NCBI GenBank assembly: GCA_025997715.1 | Contig: BNUY01000179.1 | Location: 1-5,222 of the forward strand | Length of the DNA: 5,222 nt | Reading direction: 5' to 3' | Source of the DNA: Spirochaetia bacterium | GTDB taxonomy: Bacteria > Spirochaetota > Spirochaetia > Treponematales > Breznakiellaceae | In this document: piece after piece, positions 978 to 4,608 of the stretch | How positions within the stretch are numbered: position 1 is the first letter of the stretch | Layout: every line of letters starts with the position of its first letter | Position numbers and translations under genes: made by a program | Notes under the pieces: model-generated | Databases searched by the model: none | Told to the model about the DNA's origin: nothing | The model's input: the letters and a program-made list of their open reading frames with translations, nothing else

Positions 978-1637
978 CTATAAAACCTGCGTATCCTTAT
1001 GCTTGCCCGTAATGGAGAATATGACCCACTCGGCAATATTGACCGCATGATCGCCGATGCGTTCAAAGTATTTGGCAATCTGCATGAGGTCAACGGCCTG
1101 TTCACCATTTTCTACATCCTCATGGATTAACTGTATCATATCCGTTTTCACGATGTCAAACAAATCGTCCACAACATTGTCGGAGACAATGACCGCCTGC
1201 GCCAGGGCCAAATCCTTTTTGACAAAGGCATCAATACTGTCTGTCACCATTTTTATTGTTGCCGCCGCCATTTGCGGGATATGCTTGAGGTTGATGATAT
1301 ATTTCCGCCCAGCCAGATATACGCAGAGTTCCGAAATATCGGCGGCCTGATCGCCGATACGTTCCATGTCGGTAATCATTTTCAGCGCCGTGGAAACCTG
1401 ACGTAAATCCCGTGCCACCGGCTGTTGATTCATAAGCAGCTTTAAGCAAAGGGTTTCAATTTCCTTTTCCTTGTCATCAATTATGTCGTCACTTTCAATG
1501 ATTTTTTGAGCCGACTCCACATCCTGTTCTTCAAGCGCCTTTACCGCTTTCGCTATGGCGTGTTCAATAAGAGCGCCCATTTCAATCAGGCTGTTATTCA
1601 ATTGTGTAAGCTGTTCGTCAAAACGACTGCGCATCAT
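978..1637 (-). CDS. phoU: Phosphate signalling/transport regulator PhoU
   Basis: The 219-residue product has the usual PhoU length and two helical-bundle repeats. Each repeat carries the family signature: [11 protein letters not shown] at about residues 91-101 and [11 protein letters not shown] at about 191-201. The ERxxD acidic residues are those that bind metal ions in known PhoU structures. PhoU is a cytoplasmic, membrane-associated protein that links the Pst transporter to the PhoR-type sensor kinase and restrains phosphate uptake. It is the last gene of the pst operon. Its ATGATG start overlaps the pstB stop (TGA at 1634-1636), indicating translational coupling. A GGGGAGG Shine-Dalgarno sequence at 1643-1649 lies 5 nt from the first ATG and 8 nt from the second, so translation could begin at 1637 or 1634. 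No sensor kinase or response regulator gene is visible nearby. Confidence 0.95.
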
Positions 1638-2383
1638 CCAAACCTCCCCGTAATGTAATCTTCTGTCCGCTTATCCTGCGGCATGGCGAATAGTGCCCCG
1701 GTGTCCGTGTACTCGACCACCTCCCCAAGAAGAAAAAACGCTGTTTTATCGCTGATCCGGGTGGCTTGCTGCATATTATGGGTCACGATAATGATACTGT
1801 ACTTTTCCCGCAAAGTCAGCAGCAATTCCTCGATTTTGCCGGTGGAAATAGGGTCAAGGGCGCTTGTAGGCTCGTCCATCAGCAGCACCTCAGGCGATAC
1901 GGCAAGCGCCCTCGCAATGCAGAGCCGCTGTTGTTGTCCTCCCGACAAGCCAAGAGCGGACTTTTTCAGCCGGTCCTTGACCTCGCCCCAAATCGCCGCG
2001 CCTAGGAGGGATTCTTCAACGATTTTGTCAAGCTCATACCGTGACTTTATGCCATGGGTTCGCGGGCCAAAGGCGATATTGTCGTATACGCTCATGGGGA
2101 AAGGATTGGGCTTTTGGAATACCATCCCTACTCTCTTTCGGAGCAGATTGATGTCCATGTTCCCATACACGTCTTCGCCAAACAGCCGCACACCGCCTGA
2201 AATTGTGCAGCCCTCTACCAAATCGTTCATGCGGTTGAGTGTCTTTAGGAGCGTTGACTTTCCGCAGCCGGAGGGCCCGATACACGCGGTTATCTTTCCG
2301 CTTTCGATTCCCATGGTGATGTTTTTAAGCGCCTGAAAATCGCCATAAAACAAATCCAAAGATTGTATATCAAAACAGTTCAT
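1634..2383 (-). CDS. pstB: Phosphate ABC transporter ATP-binding protein PstB
   Basis: The 249-residue ABC ATPase has every expected motif intact: Walker [10 protein letters not shown] (36-44), Q-loop at Q90 within the PstB-typical QKPNPFP, signature LSGGQQQR (146-153), Walker B VLLMDEP (166-172), D-loop SALD (174-177) and the switch histidine H202. The [12 protein letters not shown] segment and the NRMNDL stretch after Walker A are characteristic of PstB rather than other ABC ATPases. It hydrolyses ATP as a dimer on the cytoplasmic face of PstC/PstA to drive inorganic phosphate import. The ATG start is preceded by GGAGG at 2390-2394 with 6-nt spacing. That ribosome-binding site lies inside a duplicated copy of the pstA 3' end, and pstB is separated from pstA by a repeat insertion of about 300 bp, unlike the other tightly packed junctions of this operon. 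The stop overlaps phoU. Confidence 0.97.
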
Positions 2384-2401
2384 GCTTTGCCTCCAATCCG
2401 C
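2379..2401. repeat. Direct duplication, left copy (pstB start/RBS)
   Basis: This 23-bp stretch matches 2704-2726 at 22 of 23 positions; the only difference is T at 2383 versus C at 2708. It contains the pstB start region and its Shine-Dalgarno sequence, and reproduces the last codons of pstA. Together with the right copy it brackets the palindromic repeat. It looks like a target-site duplication or another insertion scar. Confidence 0.8.
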
Positions 2402-2703
2402 AGAAGAAATTTAACCACAGACCACACGGACAACACGGACAAAAGAAAAGATAGGAAAGAACGAAGAGAATAATAACCGCAAAGGCGACATCAGACCTTT
2501 GGTCTGCGGCGCGCGAAGGAAGAGAAGAATTAACCACGAACCACACTAACCCCACGAATAAAAGAGGGGAATTGGGTAGTCCGGGTTCGTGTTGTTCGTG
2601 GTTAAATATTCTTCTCTTTTTCTTCCCTTTGTCGCCTTCGGCGCCTTTGCGGTTAAAATTCTTCTCTTTGTCCGTGAGGGTCCGTGTGGTCCGTGGTTTC
2701 TTC
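2402..2703. repeat. ~300-bp imperfect palindromic intergenic repeat element
   Basis: The block between pstA and pstB folds back on itself around position 2568. Paired segments, left to right arm: 2415-2431 with 2680-2696 (one mismatch in 17), 2434-2443 with 2667-2676, 2474-2487 with 2642-2655 (14 bp perfect, TAACCGCAAAGGCG), 2520-2530 with 2608-2618 (AAGAGAAGAAT), and 2531-2541 with 2594-2604 (TAACCACGAAC). The arms are built from short ACCAC…ACGGAC and AACCGCAAAGGCG modules. From memory these resemble intergenic repeats found in many bacterial genomes; I cannot name a family. Open frames here, such as one at 2370-2708 on the - strand, are low-complexity read-through of the repeat and not credible genes. 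In the pst transcript the block could form a long, bulged hairpin. No transposase is encoded, so it would need to be mobilised in trans. Confidence 0.8.
2492..2506. repeat. Small perfect hairpin in left arm of the element
   Basis: CAGACC TTT GGTCTG is a perfect 6-bp stem with a 3-nt loop. It lies within a segment of the left arm (about 2488-2517) that has no clear counterpart in the right arm. It looks like a separate insertion into, or expansion of, the palindrome. Confidence 0.5.
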
Positions 2704-2726
2704 TTCACGCTTTGCCTCCAATCCGC
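2704..2726. repeat. Direct duplication, right copy (pstA 3' end)
   Basis: This is the partner of 2379-2401 (22 of 23 identical). It contains the final pstA codons, the stop, and an internal GGAGG that would have served pstB before the two genes were separated. Reading the - strand, this copy ends GCGTGA (pstA stop) where the other reads GCATGA (pstB start), so the two genes probably once overlapped by ATGA. Confidence 0.8.
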
Positions 2727-3529
2727 CGGGCAAGCTTTGCAGACATGGCATTGATTAAAACCACAACAACCAAAAGCACAACCGCAGTGGCGTAGCCCTC
2801 GCCGGTGTGAAGTCCCTCACTGGAAAGAGCGTACATATGAACCGAAAGGGTGCGTGCCGATTGCATAGGGTTTTCAGGTATCTGCGCCACGGTTCCGGCG
2901 GTATAAATCAGCGCCGCCGTTTCTCCTGCGATGCGTCCGATGGAAAGGATTACTCCGGCCAGAATACCCGGCATCGATGCGGGCAGCACAATGCGGAATA
3001 CGGTGCGGAGCTTGCCCGCGCCCAGGCCGAAAGCCCCCTCGCGGTAGGTGTCGGGAACCGCTTGCAGGGCTTCCTCACTTGAACGCATAATCAGCGGCAA
3101 AATCATAATTGACAGGGTAAACGCTCCCGCAAGCAGAGAAAATCCCCAGCCTAAAAAGGTGACAAAAAACAACATTCCAAACAGGCCGTATACAATGGAG
3201 GGAATGCCGGAAAGCGTTTCTGTTGTCACCCGTACTAAAAGTACGGCTTTGTTGCCGCGTTTTGCGTATTCGACAAGATAAATCGCCGCGAAAACGCCGA
3301 GGGGCACCGCGATGATGAGGGACAACAAGGTCATGATGACGGTGGAAATCATCGCGGGCATGAGTGATACGTTTTCGCTGTTGTAGTTAAGCGCAAAAAG
3401 TGACGGCTTGATATGGGGGACGCCTTTCACCAGGATGAAGCCCACAAGGAACAACAAAACCGAAAAGGTAAGAGCGGCGGCCGTCCATGTAGCGGCGCCC
3501 ATAAATAGTTCGGATGGCTTTTTACGCAC
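2705..3529 (-). CDS. pstA: Phosphate ABC transporter permease PstA
   Basis: The 274-residue inner-membrane permease has about six hydrophobic spans, at roughly residues 12-35, 58-88, 97-126, 131-149, 184-211 and 247-264. The binding-protein-dependent transport (EAA-loop) motif runs from EEALQAVPDTYREGA (152-166) through the GLGAGKLRT stretch to the LP at 182-183. The loop after TM2 carries ETLSGIPSIVYGLFG (104-118) and the last core helix carries GRIAGETAAL (198-207), both typical of PstA. With PstC it forms the phosphate channel. The start is GTG at 3529, directly after the pstC TAA stop (3530-3532) with no gap. A GGAGGG site at 3538-3543, inside the end of pstC, is spaced 8 nt from it. The C-terminus RRIGGKA lies in the duplicated sequence flanking the downstream repeat element, and the protein appears full-length despite the insertion. 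Confidence 0.95.
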   Translation of the reverse strand: MRKKPSELFMGAATWTAAALTFSVLLFLVGFILVKGVPHIKPSLFALNYNSENVSLMPAMISTVIMTLLSLIIAVPLGVFAAIYLVEYAKRGNKAVLLVRVTTETLSGIPSIVYGLFGMLFFVTFLGWGFSLLAGAFTLSIMILPLIMRSSEEALQAVPDTYREGAFGLGAGKLRTVFRIVLPASMPGILAGVILSIGRIAGETAALIYTAGTVAQIPENPMQSARTLSVHMYALSSEGLHTGEGYATAVVLLVVVVLINAMSAKLARRIGGKA

Positions 3530-4363
3530 TTATATTACCCTCCGTTTCAGCGCCGAAAAACTTAAGTTTATGAGCAGGATAAACACAAACAGAACAACAC
3601 CGGTTGCAATCAATGCCTCACGGTGCAGTTCCGCCGCATAGCCCATTTCAAGAACGATGTTTGCGGTAAGTGTGCGCACTCCTTTCCACAGGGACACCGG
3701 CATACGCGCCTGGTTCCCCGCTACCATAATTACGGCCATGGTTTCGCCTATGGCACGTCCTACACCGAGGACAACCGCCGCAAGTACACCGGATTTGGCG
3801 GCGGGGAGCAGGACAAAGAATACGCTGCGGTAATGCCCCGCGCCGAGGGCCAACGCGCCCTCGTAATACTGCTCTGGAACAGCGCGCAGCGCGCTCTCGG
3901 CAATGCCAATGATTGTCGGTAAAATCATAATACCGAGCAGGATAGAAGCCGATAAAATGCTGTTGCCTGAAAGCGGGATAATGACCGCCATGCCGAAAAA
4001 ACCGTATACAACGGAAGGGATACCCGCGAGTAGTTCCACCCCCGGCTTAAGTACACGATAGAGTTTTTTCGGGCAGACACGGGCGAGAAAGATTGCCGCT
4101 AGTATGCCGATAGGAACACCGATAAGGAGCGCCCCCGCCGTAACATACAGACTGCCAAGTATCATGGGAAATATTCCAAACACCGGGGGCGTGTCAGCCG
4201 GCGACCATTCTCTGCCAAGCAAAAAATTGAGCACGCCTATTTTCCCTGCCGCAGGGAGGCCGTTTGCAAACAAGAAAACACAGATTAAGGCAACCGCCAG
4301 TATGGAAGTTAACGCCGATATTAAAAACACGGCGCCCATGAGTTTTTCTCTCACCCTGCTCAT
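3530..4363 (-). CDS. pstC: Phosphate ABC transporter permease PstC
   Basis: Starting at the ATG at 4363 the protein is 277 residues and begins MSRVREKLMGAVFLIS, the short basic N-terminus typical of PstC before the first helix. Other spans lie near residues 62-94, 105-130, 135-155, 190-215 and 247-270. Family hallmarks are the REWSP…FGIFP region (51-66), ELLAGIPSVVYGFFG (110-124), the EAA loop ESALRAVPEQYYEGA (156-170) leading to LP (186-187), and GRAIGETMAV (202-211). It pairs with PstA to form the membrane channel. An upstream in-frame TTG at 4435 would add 24 residues, but it lacks a Shine-Dalgarno sequence and lies upstream of the predicted promoter core, so I reject it. The chosen ATG also lacks an obvious Shine-Dalgarno sequence; another ATG at 4339 is possible. 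pstS, normally placed before pstC, is absent. Confidence 0.93.
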   Translation of the reverse strand: MSRVREKLMGAVFLISALTSILAVALICVFLFANGLPAAGKIGVLNFLLGREWSPADTPPVFGIFPMILGSLYVTAGALLIGVPIGILAAIFLARVCPKKLYRVLKPGVELLAGIPSVVYGFFGMAVIIPLSGNSILSASILLGIMILPTIIGIAESALRAVPEQYYEGALALGAGHYRSVFFVLLPAAKSGVLAAVVLGVGRAIGETMAVIMVAGNQARMPVSLWKGVRTLTANIVLEMGYAAELHREALIATGVVLFVFILLINLSFSALKRRVI

Positions 4364-4382
4364 ATCGGAATGATACGACAGG

Positions 4383-4436
4383 AATATATAATCTAACAGC
4401 AGTTTCAGGTAAAATTTGTGTAAAATCGTGATCAAA
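4383..4436 (-). promoter_or_regulatory. Candidate pst promoter with 11-bp-phased TTTTAC repeats
   Basis: On the - strand, TTTGAT (4436-4431), TTTTAC (4425-4420) and TTTTAC (4414-4409) recur at exact 11-bp intervals, the spacing of PhoB/PhoP-type binding half-sites. A possible -35 (TTTACC, 4413-4408) lies 17 bp from a -10 candidate (TATATA, 4390-4385); TATATT at 4388-4383 is an alternative. Transcription would start near 4376-4379, leaving a leader of roughly 13-16 nt before the pstC ATG. The sequence of a PhoB box in this lineage is not known to me, so phosphate control is inferred from the spacing and the gene served. Confidence 0.45.
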
Positions 4437-4509: not shown

Positions 4510-4608
4510 AAAGAAAGGTAACTATTCAGCCAGTTTTTAGCTAATTCCTTGTATTATAAGGAATTACGCTATTTGAATTGAACTCCGGCTGAATAGTTAC
4601 AAAGAAAG
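4510..4608. mobile_element. 83-bp MITE-like element with 8-bp target duplication, IS66-type ends
   Basis: The element at 4518-4600 has perfect 14-bp terminal inverted repeats: GTAACTATTCAGCC at 4518-4531 and GGCTGAATAGTTAC at 4587-4600. The flanks are identical 8-bp direct repeats AAAGAAAG, at 4510-4517 and 4601-4608, abutting the ends exactly. IS66-family elements are known for ends beginning GTAA and 8-bp duplications, so a non-autonomous IS66 relative is the best guess. Inside is a nested inverted repeat: TAATTCCTT (4542-4550) pairs with AAGGAATTA (4558-4566), extended by TAGC (4538-4541) and GCTA (4568-4571) across a one-base bulge. There is no room for a transposase. It lies between the predicted transcription start and the lipoprotein start codon, so its RNA would form a strong hairpin in the 5' leader. 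Confidence 0.8.

Follow-up and report, generated by a model that had tools for sequence, protein, structure and literature searches.

A dispersed family of three-word palindromes, whose arms also enclose GxxExxY genes, supplied an insertion between pstA and pstB of a spirochaetal operon

Why should two genes of a phosphate-transport operon be held apart by several hundred bases that fold back on themselves? The question is raised by a 5,222-nucleotide stretch of a Spirochaetia genome (hereafter the window), which is contig C179 of an assembly of 447 contigs (3.38 Mb, 77% complete). Here pstC-pstA-pstB-phoU follow one another on the minus strand, and pstA and pstB are spaced by 321 bp, including 302 bp between two copies of a 23-bp sequence. 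The names pstA, pstB and pstC were given by gene order and homology; Pfam assigned PhoU, ABC_tran and two BPD_transp_1 domains to the four open reading frames (ORFs). Our reading, to which we give a probability of about two in three, is that the insert is a nest of palindromes from a dispersed repeat family with the arms found around GxxExxY genes, and that these are likely gene-less derivatives of modules whose movement the predicted GxxExxY nuclease would assist. Genomes, contigs and loci are labelled G, C and L; "own genome" denotes the window's assembly, and coordinates in the window are collected in Table 1.

The junction was compared with that of G002, a genome of the same genus whose pstB DNA is 96% identical to that of the window. 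G002 has a single 23-bp copy and no insert (AAAACAGTTCACGCTTTGCCTCCAATCCGCCGGGC; locus L046, around 2245-2270), and its genes share a 4-bp stop/start overlap, GTGA. The flanks of the window are collinear with G002 on both sides of the insert. The left copy (TTCATGCTTTGCCTCCAATCCGC) and the right copy (TTCACGCTTTGCCTCCAATCCGC) agree at 22 of 23 positions, whereas the best match between shuffled 60-bp flanks reached 16/23 in 300 shuffles. The duplicated bases include the stop of pstA (GCGTGA) and, six bases upstream of the pstB start, GGAGG, so that pstB is predicted to have its own ribosome-binding site. Thus 302 bp were inserted at the pst junction with a 23-bp target duplication, the ends of the insert being ambiguous by a few bases (TTC at 2704-2706 can be assigned to either side). 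A preliminary description, made from the window alone, had proposed an insertion that split a pstA/pstB overlap and duplicated 23 bp with the pstA stop and the pstB Shine-Dalgarno sequence, and G002 bears it out. It had also expected merged copies to restore the overlap as ATGA; the 4-bp overlap is there in G002, but as GTGA.

Whether the long spacer could be ancestral was determined from the pst loci of relatives. A match was present in 44 of 57 genomes and 30 loci were returned, G002 and 29 others. Both genes were found in 25 of the 29 (L052, L059, L064 and L072 gave no pstA match); the two overlap in 15, with an overlap of exactly 4 bp in nine, and gaps reach 137 bp at most. Because overlaps are common and no gap is longer than this, the 321-bp spacer is not ancestral, and the shared spacer that the preliminary description had named as counting against an insertion did not appear. 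The sole mismatch between the copies turns the GTG start of G002 into ATG for pstB. Since the empty site agrees with the copy on the pstA side (plus-strand TTCACGC), it is most simply the pstB-side copy that changed. We offer adaptation as a suggestion only, because a divergence of 4% also predicts one substitution in 23 bases.

The whole gap folds as one long imperfect hairpin, with -147 kcal/mol (z -13) as RNA and -89 kcal/mol (z -14.6) as DNA, and none of 100 shuffles folded as well. What had been described as one palindrome is indeed palindromic, but consists of three, nested in each other. They have a common arm plan, AACC followed by three NCNRA words at exactly 9-bp steps; the letters vary between palindromes (ACGAA/ACTAA/ACGAA in the inner one) and the plan is constant. 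This arm, the defining feature of the family, is present in full three times in the window, once per palindrome. The outer palindrome also occurs alone, at C10:16726-16814, with contiguous halves where the window has 205 extra bases. Because it exists there without the inner ones, the nesting was stepwise. Elsewhere, at L037 (about 2050-2190), L378 and L390 (own genome, C95 and C46), a palindrome arm contains a small hairpin, CCACTTTTCCACC...GTGGAAAAG, which looks like the insertion of a still smaller palindrome into the arm; CAGACCTTTGGTCTG of the window may be compared. At the gathering score, the window matches no Rfam family; a plasmid collection gave no match either.

The family is dispersed. 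The 348-bp stretch from one 23-bp copy to the other has 77 matches in the own genome, itself included, and the 302-bp insert has 63 in G001, 3 in G004 and none in G002 or G003. A degenerate three-word arm pattern, searched in 57 genomes, was found 154 times in the own genome, 127 in G033, 95 in G001, 39 in G010, 38 in G008 and 24 in G015, and once or twice in each of three other same-genus genomes; the same pattern read backward, as a control, occurred 0-3 times per genome. Many of the arms of G033 are of AACCGCGAACCACGC type.

In several places the arms enclose a gene, and the enclosed genes belong to the GxxExxY protein family (TIGR04256, PF13366). The own genome has one on C3 (profile positions 2-116 of 117), one on C172 (16-117, the N-terminal part not in frame) and a 33-residue piece at the edge of C163. 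The enclosed genes scored 147 and 119 bits against a curated cut-off of 35, and 139.5 and 116.6 against one of 22. The conserved D and E-x-K and the predicted fold of a PD-(D/E)XK nuclease are present, and the closest folds to the predicted one are SSO0001, then lambda-exonuclease, MGME1 and Cas4-type nucleases; we regard GxxExxY as a predicted PD-(D/E)XK-like nuclease. A search of solved structures by sequence (a single chain, E 0.071) and a PADLOC match (E 0.004, 14 bits, one of three proteins) were not used. The C172 gene lies inside outer-type arms, AAACCACCGACCACAC on one side and TTTGTCCGTGCTGTCCGTGAGGTC on the other, at a contig end, and the C3 gene lies with GTCCGCGGATT-type arms between hsdM- and hsdS-like genes (our labels, from translations). 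For the G001 copy L082 no empty site could be read, its flanks matching separate places or one side only in relatives.

Remnants of the gene were found in palindromes themselves. L317 and L318 of G001 have the arms of C172 around what is left of the GxxExxY 3' end (41 and 44 codons, with 93% and 91% identity to C172); these are palindromes with most of the gene lost. We then compared 83 GxxExxY proteins by tblastn with 64 sequences (33 own-genome loci, 30 G001 loci and the window; 242,363 bases). All 14 matches at E<=0.011 (12 own-genome, 2 G001) lie inside palindromes by their coordinates, while two weaker ones (0.028 and 0.039) are located elsewhere. Thirteen of the 14 are N-terminal, as AKKILNCAYEVHSFLGPG, in palindromes of the middle class, and one is C-terminal. 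In several remnants, and likewise in the G022 copy L087, the open frame continues from the arm into the gene (EGAKGDEGK). Because the arms flank GxxExxY genes and 14 palindromes hold coding fragments, the window element most likely descends from GxxExxY-bearing modules. In G008, two PF13366 matches stand in a row at four loci (C9, C12, C22 and C26), possibly a paired-gene form of GxxExxY. Another candidate for the resident gene, PF05635 (23S rRNA intervening-sequence protein), was rejected, as none of its four own-genome copies has inverted flanks above score 9. Around three of the four (L218, L219 and L220) similar sequences recur on both sides, perhaps, at a guess, from diversity-generating retroelements.

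We investigated whether GxxExxY genes elsewhere have such arms. The best named matches were in Treponema and Spirochaetaceae metagenome-assembled genomes (MAGs); of 146 confirmed named loci 80 were kept, 79 with enough flank. Inverted flanks scoring at least 14 were found at 42 of the 79 loci and at 11 of 1,527 other positions of the same loci. A score of at least 16 was reached at 33 loci, whose titles include Planctomycetota, Bacteroidota groups, Treponema, Calditrichaeota, Desulfobacterales, Deltaproteobacteria, Anaerolineaceae, Latescibacterota and Lentisphaerales. Three-word arms, counted with 9- or 10-bp steps and AACC not required, converge on the gene at 28 of 78 loci compared with 5 of 1,251 control positions (Fisher 3e-32, an overstatement as loci and control positions are not independent). 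Across the 57 genomes, 6 of the 9 with at least ten arms have GxxExxY (best E<1e-15), compared with 8 of the 48 with fewer (p 0.0045). In G060, a Planctomycetota MAG, the arm CCACGAATTACACGAATTACACGAA that flanks its GxxExxY gene (L112) is itself dispersed, with 157 matches against 11 for the reversed control. Because repeats of the same design enclose GxxExxY genes in many phyla, GxxExxY likely spreads them.

The surroundings of these loci were inspected for duplicated host sequence. Direct repeats spanning GxxExxY (score at least 18) occur at 28 of 89 loci and in 20 of 1,500 shuffled pairs, and by eye are mostly palindrome sequence. With the words masked, 10 of 87 loci and 1 of 800 shuffled pairs reached at least 16, and inspection by eye showed repeat units or tandem copies; the only one bearing a Shine-Dalgarno sequence is L107, with 14 bases, AAAAGGAGG plus the palindrome's end. 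An apparent 170-bp host duplication at L186 proved to be a tandem duplication of the GxxExxY gene and flank with the gmd 3' end. At L125 a 152-bp near-identical direct repeat flanks GxxExxY, with arm-like sequence at its start and end. The G060 copies, tried as young insertions for sizing target duplications, are part of a longer composite repeat, and reading 20 loci by eye gave no clear duplication. Operon junctions recur as GxxExxY sites: the gene lies between gmd- and fcl-like sugar genes (our labels) at L157, L163 and L186, and follows an hsdM-like end at L009, L121 and L124.

A number of results weigh against this reading. Inverted flanks score below 14 at 37 of the 79 GxxExxY loci, and in five other genomes of the G060 arm search the pattern exceeded its control little or not at all (4 versus 6, 11 versus 10, 13 versus 10, 11 versus 8 and 20 versus 12). 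Despite its 127 arms, G033 yields only weak PF13366 matches; the ORFs in which they lie, about 550 aa long, may be an alternative partner. No PF13366 match was obtained in G016 (14 arms) or G045 (15 arms). The window element itself contained no GxxExxY fragment in the tblastn search, and no duplication is visible by eye at the inner junction, where the nested insertion entered the outer palindrome, in comparison with the C10 copy. The target duplications are adverse too. Among 46 palindromes picked by the arm rule (31 own-genome, the window's included, and 15 G001) and tested for direct repeats in 70-bp flanks, a score above 12 was found in one, the pst copy. Many own-genome copies sit within CAGGATAAACG ends with 8-10 bp repeats, elements with GAGCC ends show about 4-5 bp repeats where visible, and L317 and L318 have other ends (CAGGAATTCC) with repeats of about 9 bp. 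At both L018 sites, compared with G002, the target sequence was replaced, not duplicated. A single clean 23-bp duplication was found.

The wrapped copies were resolved further. Both ends are present in 11 of the 13 distinct CAGGATAAACGCAT elements, and 8-10 bp repeats, read by eye, flank 9 of these; the element on C9 has an empty site in G001, with CGCCCATTG duplicated. The repeats at the CAGGATAAACG and GAGCC ends suggest that conventional transposases moved the wrapped copies. Several transposon families contain AACC modules as apparent inserts; the pst copy lies bare in ordinary sequence. The 22 listed comparisons of sites with relatives gave two more duplications, of 10-11 bp, at L014 (8384) and L029, none at L015 (2048) and L043, replaced target sequence at L025, L032 and L042, as at L018, and other sequence at the compared site in six relatives. 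At C105 (L020, compared with L251 of G002 and L232 of G001) a decayed duplication of about 12 bp again includes a Shine-Dalgarno sequence, a second case that is suggestive only. Long duplication is not a hallmark of the family. The preliminary description had named genomic copies without flanking duplications as counting against it, and the other copies examined do lack long ones, so that a long duplication is not supported as a rule. Some IS1202-group insertion sequences may have long target duplications. The length given in PMC10132070 is 5 bp.

The main rival, in our ranking, is that the palindromes are ordinary miniature inverted-repeat transposable elements (MITEs), passengers of conventional transposons with ends CAGGATAAACG, CAGGAATTCC, GAGCCAGTTCC or GTAGACACC, that GxxExxY is a bystander gene caught in them, and that the pst copy either has shed such ends or owes its move to an unknown transposase. 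We hold this to be unlikely, though to be taken seriously. The short repeats around most two-ended CAGGATAAACGCAT elements, the CAGGAATTCC ends of the very copies with GxxExxY fragments, L317 and L318, and the arm-rich genomes that have no clear GxxExxY gene all speak for it. Against it, one arm design lies within several unrelated transposon ends and also surrounds GxxExxY in other phyla, where no such ends were noticed in 10 loci, though no systematic search was made. The pst copy is bare with a 23-bp duplication, and a bystander is not expected to have arms converging on it at 28 of 78 loci against 5 of 1,251 positions.

That the hairpin is instead a host RNA element, kept because it lowers or processes the mRNA, for instance by serving RNase III as a substrate, and so tunes PstB relative to PstA, would fit its very stable fold and its position inside an operon. 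We consider this most improbable: in the 25 relatives with both genes the spacer never exceeds 137 bp, no Rfam family was matched at its gathering score, and the genome has the arm at more than a hundred further places. Nor do we give much credence to an assembly artefact in which repeats joined two contigs at the pst junction, the least probable of the explanations. The fragmented and incomplete assembly and at least two repeat-flanked GxxExxY copies at contig edges would allow it, but the 23-mer copies differ by one base and the flanks are collinear with G002 on both sides.

Among the literature searched, the nearest described things are repetitive extragenic palindromes (REP/REPIN) with their REP-associated tyrosine transposase (RAYT, TnpA-REP), MITEs, and multicopy palindromes of Geobacter. 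REP/REPIN are dispersed short intergenic palindromes with a linked gene flanked by the same repeats, and carry a GTAG tetranucleotide at the palindrome foot (PMC3733652). The present family resembles them in its dispersed intergenic palindromes and in a gene flanked by its own repeats. It differs in that the window element has no GTAG at the stem foot, its ends reading AGAAG...CTTCTT, in arms made of words at 9-bp steps with modules that nest, and in a PD-(D/E)XK-like partner in place of the tyrosine HUH transposase RAYT. Like MITEs (reviewed in PMC10969869), the insert is short, non-coding and built of inverted repeats, with a target duplication and an empty site, and some sister copies hold remnants of a parent gene. 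Unlike MITEs, the enclosed gene is GxxExxY; no transposase gene turned up, although no transposase search was made. The duplication at pst is also much longer than the 8-10 bp of the wrapped copies. In Geobacter bemidjiensis, multicopy sequences are found in 12% of the regions between protein genes, and 31% of such regions hold several. As here, there are palindromic, intergenic families among them, and some multicopy sequences lie among phosphate and molybdate transport genes (Figure 7 legend, PMC2996986). The likeness is one of description, and the available parts of that account describe no partner gene or arm design. A GxxExxY gene near a CRISPR-type reverse transcriptase is reported in PMC8934634, whose available text does not mention repeats. 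The name GxxExxY is also used in PMC12085832, and PF13366 in PMC9756366. In the open-licence literature, outside which most subscription journals fall, no paper was found that links GxxExxY or PF13366 to repeats.

Table 1. Positions of the operon genes, the duplicated target and the palindrome arms in the window
Feature	Position	Strand	Basis and remarks
phoU-like gene	978..1637	-	ORF, PF01895; 4-bp overlap with pstB
pstB-like ATPase gene	1634..2383	-	ORF, PF00005
Left 23-bp copy	2379..2401	.	pstB Shine-Dalgarno GGAGG and start; ATG here, GTG in G002
302-bp insert, three nested palindromes	2402..2703	.	Comparison with L046, and fold
Outer palindrome, left three-word arm	2413..2440	+	Sequence; AACC-ACAGA-ACGGA-ACGGA
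Middle palindrome, left arm	2475..2487	+	Sequence; GCAAAGGCG class, then interrupted by inner hairpin CAGACCTTTGGTCTG at 2492-2506
Inner palindrome, left three-word arm	2532..2558	+	Sequence; CACGAA class
Inner palindrome, right arm	2586..2603	-	Sequence
Middle palindrome, right three-word arm	2626..2654	-	Sequence; AACC-GCAAA-CCGAA-ACAAA
Outer palindrome, right arm	2670..2698	-	Sequence; imperfect complement of left arm
Right 23-bp copy	2704..2726	.	pstA end; identical to G002 empty site
pstA-like permease gene	2705..3529	-	ORF, PF00528, tblastn against relatives; stop in right duplication copy
pstC-like permease gene	3530..4435	-	ORF, PF00528; start codon uncertain; name from operon order

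Upstream of pstC, at 4518-4600, the window has a second inverted-repeat element, GTAACTATTCAGCC ... GGCTGAATAGTTAC, AAAG-rich on both sides, which looks like another small MITE.

For the GxxExxY-linked family, we propose that the nuclease would recognise the arms, with about one helical turn per word, or the hairpin that they form, and cut, and that repair would insert a copy of the palindrome. At pst, the insert would have entered by a staggered break with 23 bp of target copied. With the pstA stop and the pstB Shine-Dalgarno sequence both in the copied stretch, neither gene would have lost its translation signals, and survival of the insertion would have depended on this duplication; after pstB was no longer translationally coupled, its start may have gone from GTG to ATG. 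Elsewhere, copies also lie within unrelated transposon ends that leave target repeats of about 9 bp or about 4-5 bp. More tentatively, and as something we would sooner doubt than assert, the family may represent a transposase-free class of bacterial mobile DNA in many phyla. Its small Cas4/RecB-like GxxExxY protein would recognise converging three-word arms and cut DNA folded into hairpins or cruciforms, both at operon junctions and within other palindromes. It would spread the gene that encodes it, as well as palindromes that carry no gene, through repair of the break, during which a variable part of the target is copied. If so, a host operon would survive a hit when the copied stretch holds a Shine-Dalgarno sequence.

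GxxExxY has no assigned role in the annotation library used, and no explanation was found for the dispersed palindromes of CACGAA, GCAAAG and CACAGA type; the link between them gives both a testable role. The partnership of repeat and gene would be like that of REP and RAYT, with a different enzyme. The pst case offers a concrete route by which an insertion can enter a tightly overlapped operon with the start and stop signals of both genes kept.
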